Origin: Deltaproteobacteria bacterium
Lineage (GTDB): Bacteria > DRYD01
Reading direction: 5' to 3'
Assembly (NCBI GenBank): GCA_028276365.1
Contig: JAPYWL010000038.1
Span: forward strand, 1-12,037
DNA: 12,037 bases
A program made the position numbers and the translations under genes. Each line of letters begins with the position of its first letter. Within the stretch, counting starts at the first letter, position 1. The notes below the pieces were generated by a model. That model worked only from the letters and a program-made list of their open reading frames with translations, was not told the DNA's origin and made no database searches. Shown here piece by piece: positions 1,069 to 3,627 of this stretch.

Positions 1069-1097
1069 GTTTAGCTTACCCACAGGGGAATTGAAAG
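1069..1097 (+). repeat. Solitary CRISPR-like repeat (type I-B style), no array
   Basis: This 29-bp stretch begins GTTTAGC, has a central near-palindrome TTACCC-ACA-GGGGAA (one A/G mismatch in a six-position stem), and ends AATTGAAAG. Type I-B repeats are typically 29-30 bp, start GTTT, carry a short central TACC/AGGAA palindrome and end ATTGAAAC, which forms the 8-base 5' handle of the crRNA. This copy differs from that handle only in its last base. I see no second copy where an array would place one (about 65 bp to either side), nor elsewhere in the window, and no cas gene. It may be an array remnant, a crRNA-like element or chance. It is locally GC-richer than its surroundings. Confidence 0.5.
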
Positions 1098-1140: not shown

Positions 1141-3627
1141 TTAATTTAATAATTCAACAATAGTTACTCCAAAACTTCCTTCTTTTTCATTAGCAAAATA
1201 AAAGTCTTTAACCATTAGATTTTTCTTTTTGAGTTCCTTTAGATAATCCCAAACCATTTTAGATAATACTTGTCCTTTGCCGTGAATTATTCTAATGGTT
1301 TTTAATTTAGTTAAAAATGCGGTTTTTATAAAATCCTCTACTTTCTTTTTAGCTTCTATATAACTATCTCCTCTTATATTTATCTCATAAATCGTATATT
1401 CTTCGTAGTTATTTTTAGGGTTATAATTTATTTTATTTTGGATTTTATTTTGTGTGGAATCTATTTTATTAGGCGTTTTAGTTGATTTTTTTATAAGTTT
1501 TAAATCATTTTTGTTAATTTCGTAGGTAATATTTTCTGATTTTACTAAGACTTTGTTTTTAGAAATATCTATAACTTCTCCTTCTAAATTTAAGGAATTT
1601 ATAAAAACGATATCTCCTATTTCTATATTGTTTTTATTTTCTGAGGTAATATTTTCTGTTAAATCTTGTGTTTTTAAAGAATCTAAATTATAATTTTTAA
1701 TTGATTTTATTAAGTTTTGAATTTTATCTATTTTGTTTTTGGATTTTAAAGAGATTAATTCTTTTTCCCAAGTACTTACAAGATTTTTAACTTCTAAATT
1801 AAAGAGCTTTTTGGCTTCATTATAAGCTTTTTCATAAGCAGTTTTAAAAGACTCACTAATTATATTTTCTTTCATTTCTTTTAGTTCTTTTAGTTTTTGT
1901 TCTAATTCTAATTCTTTTTGTTTTAAATTATTAATTAATGTGTTGTATTCATTAATTTTTTTAATATAATCGTTAAATATGTTAAGTTTATCAGATTTAT
2001 CAAGTTCTTTTAAAATATTATATGAATTTTGGATAATAGTGTTTTTAAGGCCTAATTTATTAGCTATTTCAATTCCTAAGCTATCAGAAAAAGTATCATA
2101 AATAAGTTTATATTTACTCTGTAAGTTTTGATAATCAAAATTTATTGAAGCATAAGCTATATATTGTTTGTTTTTTAAAACATATTCTTTAACTTCATCA
2201 TAATGGGTAGAAAATATGATATAGGTATTATCATATTTAAGGAGTTCTTCAATTAGAGCTATGGTTAAGGCAGCTGCTTGTAAAGGATTAGTACCACTTA
2301 CTCCTTCGTCTAATATTATTAAAACTGTTTCTTCTTTGGCTTTAGTTTCTAAATAATTTATTATTTCGTTCCAAAAGGAAACATGGGATGAAAAGGTACT
2401 AAGATTAAATTCTAAATCCTGAAAATCAATAAATTCAAAGAAGATTTTATCAAATTTTTGTAATTTACAATATTTGGCAAAAACTGGGAGATCTAAATTG
2501 TTAAAAATACTTATTAAAACTATTGATTTCATTAGAGTGGTTTTACCACTTGCATTAACTCCTGTAATTAATAATGCCTTTTTATTTAATTTAAAATCTA
2601 CTTCTACACAATTTTTTATTATCGGATTTATTAACGATTTTATTTCTATTTCAATAGATTTATTAGATTCAGTATTACATTTAGTAAAAAATGGGCTTAA
2701 TTTATAATAGTTTTCTAAAAACGATAAAACACTTATTATTTTCAATACTTTATTTAGATTATTTAAATTTTTAGTAATGTAATCATAAATAGTTATTAAT
2801 ATTTTTTGAATTTCTTCTTGTTCTAAAGAATTAAGTAATGTTAATCTATTATTATAGGGTATTATGAAGTTGGGTTCAAAAAATGCAGTTTTATGAGTAG
2901 AAGAGTAATCTTGGATTATCCCTTCCATTAAATTTATATACTGATTATTTAGTAGAATTACATATCTATTATTTCTTATTGTTATGTCTTTTGAATTTAG
3001 GTATTTTTGGTTTTCTTCTATGAATTCTTTTAGTTTTAAAGGAATAATATTATTTAGGTTTTTAATTTCATTTCTTATTTCTTTTAATTTACTTGTTGCA
3101 GTATCTTTTATATAGCCTCTTACGTCAATAGAATTATCTAAAATATAATAAAGTTCATTAAAATCAGAGCTTTTAATAAAATTATTAAAATTACTTAAAT
3201 TATTGTTTTTTTCTAATTTAGATTTTATTCTCTTTTTTAGATCTAAAAAATCTTTTAAAAAGTAAAAGAAATTAACTAAGGAATCTATTCCAAAAATACT
3301 ATATTTAGGTTTAATGTAAAATTCTAGTCTATTAAAGTCTATATATTTTGTATATTCATAATAATTATTATTTTCTATATTTAAGTTATTTGTGATAAAG
3401 AAGTTATTAAATATCCCTGCTTCATTTATATTTATACTAAAGTTTGGATTTTCTTTTAAGAATAGATAAAATTCCCAAGCTGTATCTTTAAAGTTTATCA
3501 ATATCTTCTCATTTATTATTAAATTATAAATTAAATCTAAGAAAGTAAGACAATACTTATTTGAGGTAGCTTCTAATTTAGTTTTTATTTTAGTTAATTC
3601 TTTGAATTCAAATAATCTATTTTTCAT
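1141..3627 (-). CDS. mutS2: Endonuclease MutS2 (MutS-type ATPase with C-terminal Smr domain)
   Basis: The 828-residue length is close to the usual ~780-800. MutS2 is a homodimeric DNA/ribosome-associated ATPase, linked to recombination suppression and, in Bacillus, to rescue of collided ribosomes. Order of parts: a divergent N-terminal lever/clamp region (about 1-340); a MutS ATPase with Walker A TGVNASGKTT (355-364), STFSSH segment (410-415), Walker B ending LDE (439-441) and FSTHYDE (472-478); a coiled coil rich in K/E/L (about 535-640); a KOW-like beta segment (668-712); and an Smr domain (748-828) with IIHGKG (780-785) and EGSFGVTIVEL. Two motifs are unusual: the MutS2 stretch normally read as DELGAGTDP is DEGVSGTNP, and the Smr LDLRG motif is INIRG. 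The ATG at 3625-3627 has no evident Shine-Dalgarno. The gene is divergent from mtaB. Family assignment is firm. Confidence 0.95.
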   Translation of the reverse strand: MKNRLFEFKELTKIKTKLEATSNKYCLTFLDLIYNLIINEKILINFKDTAWEFYLFLKENPNFSININEAGIFNNFFITNNLNIENNNYYEYTKYIDFNRLEFYIKPKYSIFGIDSLVNFFYFLKDFLDLKKRIKSKLEKNNNLSNFNNFIKSSDFNELYYILDNSIDVRGYIKDTATSKLKEIRNEIKNLNNIIPLKLKEFIEENQKYLNSKDITIRNNRYVILLNNQYINLMEGIIQDYSSTHKTAFFEPNFIIPYNNRLTLLNSLEQEEIQKILITIYDYITKNLNNLNKVLKIISVLSFLENYYKLSPFFTKCNTESNKSIEIEIKSLINPIIKNCVEVDFKLNKKALLITGVNASGKTTLMKSIVLISIFNNLDLPVFAKYCKLQKFDKIFFEFIDFQDLEFNLSTFSSHVSFWNEIINYLETKAKEETVLIILDEGVSGTNPLQAAALTIALIEELLKYDNTYIIFSTHYDEVKEYVLKNKQYIAYASINFDYQNLQSKYKLIYDTFSDSLGIEIANKLGLKNTIIQNSYNILKELDKSDKLNIFNDYIKKINEYNTLINNLKQKELELEQKLKELKEMKENIISESFKTAYEKAYNEAKKLFNLEVKNLVSTWEKELISLKSKNKIDKIQNLIKSIKNYNLDSLKTQDLTENITSENKNNIEIGDIVFINSLNLEGEVIDISKNKVLVKSENITYEINKNDLKLIKKSTKTPNKIDSTQNKIQNKINYNPKNNYEEYTIYEINIRGDSYIEAKKKVEDFIKTAFLTKLKTIRIIHGKGQVLSKMVWDYLKELKKKNLMVKDFYFANEKEGSFGVTIVELLN

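Follow-up and report, generated by a model that had tools for sequence, protein, structure and literature searches.

The CRISPR repeat at positions 1069 to 1097 of the analysed DNA belongs to one of about 20 copies of the initial part of a CRISPR array that are spread through the host genome. Taken together, these copies probably represent a MITE-like, dispersed family that derives from a CRISPR array head (about 100 bp of leader and one repeat) and that spread as insertions. CRISPR leaders and repeats are usually regarded as fixed parts of arrays, and single ectopic repeats are rare. The presence of leader plus repeat at about 20 gene ends would mean that an array head can act like a family of dispersed repeats, which raises the questions of how CRISPR loci reach new sites and whether Cas1 moves more than spacers. 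With this family it can also be asked whether antisense RNA driven by the leader has a use at gene ends or is simply tolerated. In the literature searched, mostly without subscription journals, we found no earlier report of a dispersed leader-repeat family.

The leader and repeat copy behind mutS2

The window, meaning the whole stretch of 12,037 nucleotides that was analysed, is contig C120 of the fragmented assembly G000 (1.59 Mb, 124 contigs, 87% complete), and the family is described here for this one species. Positions 1069–1097 read GTTTAGCTTACCCACAGGGGAATTGAAAG and show one mismatch to the consensus of the host arrays, GTTTAGCTTACCCATAGGGGAATTGAAAG. As the sequence-only reading had stated, this is a 29-bp type I-B repeat with a GTTT start, a central palindrome and the 3′ end ATTGAAAG; from what is known of type I-B systems, we take these last eight nucleotides (1090–1097) to be the would-be crRNA 5′ handle. 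Elsewhere in the window no second match with three or fewer mismatches to the array consensus was found, and 200 shuffles gave none. The same reading had called the repeat lone. This holds in so far as the window contains no cas gene and no second full repeat, but a leader copy is attached to it and about 20 such single-repeat units occur genome-wide. Because 962–1068 copies a CRISPR leader, the feature is 962–1097 and not the repeat at 1069–1097 by itself. The features are as follows.

962–1097, + strand: whole dispersed unit, CRISPR-leader copy plus one repeat (one of 24 full-length genome matches; alignment)
962–1068, + strand: repeat-proximal CRISPR leader copy, without the outer leader found before arrays (about 90% identity to the C84 array leader; alignment)
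1069–1097, + strand: CRISPR repeat, one mismatch to the array consensus (pattern match)
954–961, no strand: left copy of a probable target-site duplication, ATATCAAT (7/8 identical to 1098–1105; family-wide permutation test)
1098–1105, no strand: right copy of the probable target-site duplication, ATAACAAT (permutation test)
1141–3627, − strand: mutS2, MutS domain V and Smr (Pfam MutS_V and Smr)
2–937, + strand: convergent ORF upstream of the unit, 311 aa, no Pfam match (ORF call and Pfam)

The unit sits between convergent genes, as had been read from the sequence, with the ORF ending at 937 facing mutS2. It is antisense to mutS2 and points into its 3′ end, the stop codon lying 43 nt past the repeat end. 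Among the genes of the window are the housekeeping genes mutS2, miaB-like, accC and upp, and an Rfam search of the window gave no match. In repeat and leader, 962–1097 matches the arrays of the host; a functional array has at least two repeats and a spacer, and 962–1250 contains one full repeat. The repeat starts with the 11 bases GTTTAGCTTAC, which also occur without mismatch at 886–896 within the coding sequence of the upstream ORF, probably by chance.

A dispersed family in a type I-B host

A matching array elsewhere in the genome, which the sequence-only reading had considered, does exist, together with a complete type I-B cas operon. Arrays with the window-type repeat were found on C72 (39 repeats), C84 (32), C59 (9) and C66 (3), with spacers of 35–40 nt. 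The operon on C84 (cas8b/csh1, cas7/csh2, cas5b, cas3, cas4, cas6, cas2 and cas1) stands directly before leader and array, a second cas6 adjoins the C68 leader, and cas1 is present once in the 87% complete assembly. The cas4 frame (C84 4638–5220, − strand) is open over its full length and has no ATG, GTG or TTG near the ribosome-binding site; its start is likely ATT. Beside several arrays and units (L086, L089, L090, L095, L097 and L104) we observed a multi-copy gene family of about 510 aa (MKKLPIGISDFKELINGNYIYVDKTEY...).

With a relaxed repeat pattern, 107 copies were detected in the genome, from which about 15 are isolated. The 100 bases upstream of the isolated repeats are alike and are the same sequence as the true array leader. 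A search with the whole unit gave 24 full-length leader-repeat copies, 4 of which head arrays and 20 of which have a single repeat. The units of C68 and C71, whose contigs end just past the first repeat, appear to be array heads. An outer leader (...GAATCTGTCGATCCCCCCAG) precedes the unit in the 4 array heads and in two of the 20 single-repeat copies (C87 and C72). The other 18, including the window copy, lack it and begin at about AGAAAAAYTA, with one 5′ border common to 16 of them. At the 3′ side the border of the single-repeat copies is the repeat end, and the flanks are unrelated. Before the main array of G001, a genome of the same genus, outer and inner leader are joined in the same order, which suggests, from the two sequences compared, that the single units descend from an ancestral full leader. 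Neither GTDB contigs nor IMG/VR gave a match to the repeat pattern in a set from which the genome itself may be missing.

We also compared the orthologous gene ends in G001. All 12 (11 distinct loci, since two share one ortholog) are without the unit, and the single-repeat units are therefore insertions in the G000 lineage. For instance, thrS, assigned by its C-terminal sequence, ends in LFDLLKNL* in G001 and in LFDLLNKLE followed by LSIPLWVS* in G000, where the antisense repeat provides the final codons together with the stop. Repeats in G001 and G002 otherwise lie within arrays, and leader-like matches elsewhere in G001 were low-complexity T-runs only. Judged by these sequence comparisons, of the genomes compared only the G000 lineage shows this spread of the unit. 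Many short non-coding copies, common borders and empty sites in relatives, which are among the features by which a MITE is recognised, were found.

The idea that the repeat is an array relic, which had been proposed for the window copy, would require that an array at each site shrank in place to leader plus one repeat. Decaying array remnants do occur in G000 (C66:5809–6165 and C70:14300–14410), and in G001 a degenerate CRISPR leader with repeats (C26 690–1960, L130) lies 0.6–1.9 kb behind mutS2, although not at the mutS2 end. We nevertheless consider such shrinkage highly improbable, as it would have to account for 20 sites, all at different gene ends, with the 12 orthologous ends compared (11 loci) empty. 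Moreover, most single copies group together by sequence and have in common a 10-nt deletion and an altered leader end, and the outer leader of the arrays is missing in 18 of 20. In the C70 remnant (14250–14550, − strand; L088), a repeat adjoins the outer leader immediately; behind it come degenerate repeats and three half repeats (GGAATTGAAA) spaced about 16 nt apart.

The 26 leader columns adjoining the repeat differ most among the single copies of the dispersed family (mean difference 0.205, compared to 0.07–0.11 elsewhere in the unit). The array leaders differ by 0.065 in this segment, and the repeats at the array heads are identical; the window copy is among those nearest the array type. 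In studied systems, the repeat-adjacent leader is the docking segment of adaptation complexes. As this segment is the most eroded, the single copies have probably lost the ability to take up spacers, in agreement with their having one repeat each. The eroded leader ends may keep the copies from growing into arrays.

Position and orientation at gene ends

The repeat end points antisense toward the 3′ end and stop codon of the neighbouring gene in all but two of the 20 single copies. Under random intergenic insertion, modelled on the ORFs called in this analysis, the rate of facing a stop is 0.45, and the binomial probability of 18/20 is about 4e-5. In addition, 15 of the 18 are at most 15 nt from the stop or contain it (expected, 0.053 per copy); the binomial probability computed for 14/18 is 3.5e-15. 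The distances, corrected for a duplicated half repeat in 8 copies, are mostly 1–14 nt, and the stop codon lies inside the unit in 4 copies, so that the window copy with its 43 nt is looser than most. The neighbouring genes include relA/spoT, lepA, hemB, a fumarase-type lyase, thrS, an FTCD-type formiminotransferase and a Lon-domain protein. Read in antisense, the repeat contains a stop codon in each of the three frames within 30 nt.

Replication-strand bias was considered as the cause of the orientation and rejected, since the sign of the GC skew varies among copies (12 negative, 7 positive and one without a measurement away from the element). The orientation is independent of GC skew and therefore follows the gene, not the replichore. 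Plain transposition leaves this orientation rule unexplained. Copies of the unit may survive best at gene ends, where a three-frame stop would come from the antisense repeat; their retention may also reflect harmlessness.

Selection for a regulatory function would explain both position and orientation. The units would then be mini-CRISPRs: transcription from the leader would yield a crRNA-like antisense RNA, and the guide in this RNA would be the adjacent gene's 3′ end or would match another target. Any putative leader transcript would run through the repeat into the antisense of the neighbouring gene end. In favour of mini-CRISPRs, the antisense position is uniform, the genome contains Cas6 and Cascade genes, and ectopic repeats that act as guides are already known (PMC9458426). 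Several results speak against a guide function, including the CreTA-like guide that had been suggested for the window copy. The 36-nt sequences after the repeats matched 612 kb of the genome (about 38%) no better than control gene ends did (34.1 vs 32.7 bits). No second full repeat is present that would close off a guide, and the sequences of repeats and handles have drifted, with about half of the copies having ATTAAAAG. Folding of the unit did not exceed that of shuffled sequences, and no promoter above chance was found in the window. We therefore regard regulatory mini-CRISPRs as unlikely.

The insertion family does share features with CreTA, whose creA is an ectopic CRISPR repeat outside arrays (PMC9458426), namely repeats outside arrays that are degenerate relative to the array repeats, in a type I-B host. 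It differs in having about 20 copies with a leader, placed at stop codons. CreTA is recognised by a spacer-like match to a nearby promoter that drives a small toxin RNA, and by a crRNA-like RNA that Cas6 processes and Cascade binds; no toxin RNA or matching promoter target was found, and no match exceeded the controls in 612 kb. Exaptation of repeats in general (PMC8730458) also has something in common with the family. Solitary repeat units of viruses, the Racr RNA anti-CRISPRs (PMC10651486), are likewise single repeats behind a promoter-like region and without adjacent cas genes. However, Racrs are carried by viruses and plasmids, whereas the present units are chromosomal, stand behind housekeeping genes in many copies and use the host's own leader. 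We found no sign of carriage by a virus, provirus or plasmid: the window genes are housekeeping genes, and 0 IMG/VR contigs contain the repeat. In Methanocaldococcus jannaschii, multi-locus elements of leader (LR) plus short repeats place one leader type at many sites, some with few repeats, and these are true spacer-bearing arrays. We know of no stop-codon rule for the LR elements, and a scan with a repeat pattern for this organism gave no match.

REP elements and their RAYTs provide another comparison, as these dispersed intergenic repeats lie in part within 15 nt of stop codons (PMC12306157, PMC2817692). The present units share this placement, but are derived from a CRISPR leader, are not dominated by a palindrome and occur in one orientation only. 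The Y1 transposase family of RAYTs (PF01797) was absent from the 87% complete G000 assembly.

Borders of the unit and its possible mobilisation

Direct repeats of 5–8 bp touch both borders in several copies; they are clear in about 5 of 17, vary in length and are absent from many. Examples are ACTATTT on both sides in C5, ATATCAAT/ATAACAAT in the window, TTTATTAA/TTTATTTA in C70 and AAGAA in C106. Flank pairs matched better than permuted pairs (p 0.0005). As the scoring was set after the examples had been viewed, the test was repeated under 24 settings, excluding the duplicated C16 copy, and gave p 0.0003–0.02. A looser search for duplications over 45-base flanks gave no signal. AATTACCCTAT at the start of the leader and AATTCCCCTAT at the end of the repeat mirror each other and form a weak inverted repeat (about 10/11 bp in the array type and 9/11 in most copies). 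The genome search with the whole unit detected no longer element that bears both unit ends, and transposases of the three families searched (Y1, PF01797; DDE_Tnp_1; IS256-type) were not found in G000 at 87% completeness.

These borders suggest that the unit moves as DNA, which would be cut and joined with a 5–8 bp stagger by an enzyme acting in trans, either a Cas1-containing complex or a transposase. Tentatively, the array head might itself be a mobile element, for which the CRISPR integrase Cas1, the sole enzyme of this kind detected here, would cut the repeat end and the mirror motif of the leader and insert the unit behind active genes with a short target duplication. We regard this role of Cas1 as doubtful; if true, CRISPR arrays could seed themselves at new sites.

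Alternatively, a self-spacer directed at a gene end would cause cleavage, and repair of the break would copy repeat and leader from an array. Such repair would bring gene sequence right up to the repeat end, in agreement with the observed positions, and would require no transposase, in line with the result for the three families tested. On the other hand, it predicts variable borders on the leader side, whereas one border is common to 16 of 18 copies, and it does not predict flanking duplications. Moreover, no self-targeting spacer was found for the unit sites when the 81 array spacers were compared to 426 kb including gene ends. Repair after self-targeting is thus very unlikely, and insertion of a mobile, non-autonomous unit that has defined ends is, as the simplest account, the reading that we prefer.

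Two further loci bear on the surroundings of the units. C16 1–12631 (L100) and C83 1–12381 (L098) form a segmental duplication of about 12 kb with about 94% identity, and a leader-repeat unit stands behind the same gene in both copies. At a second site, one copy of the duplication has the repeat alone and the other apparently the leader start alone. This pair was considered as a near-isogenic empty site and rejected, as the two are different remnants of one old copy. On C124 (8457–8476, − strand; L094), the perfect palindrome GTAATAACCGGTTATTAC lies directly behind one unit.
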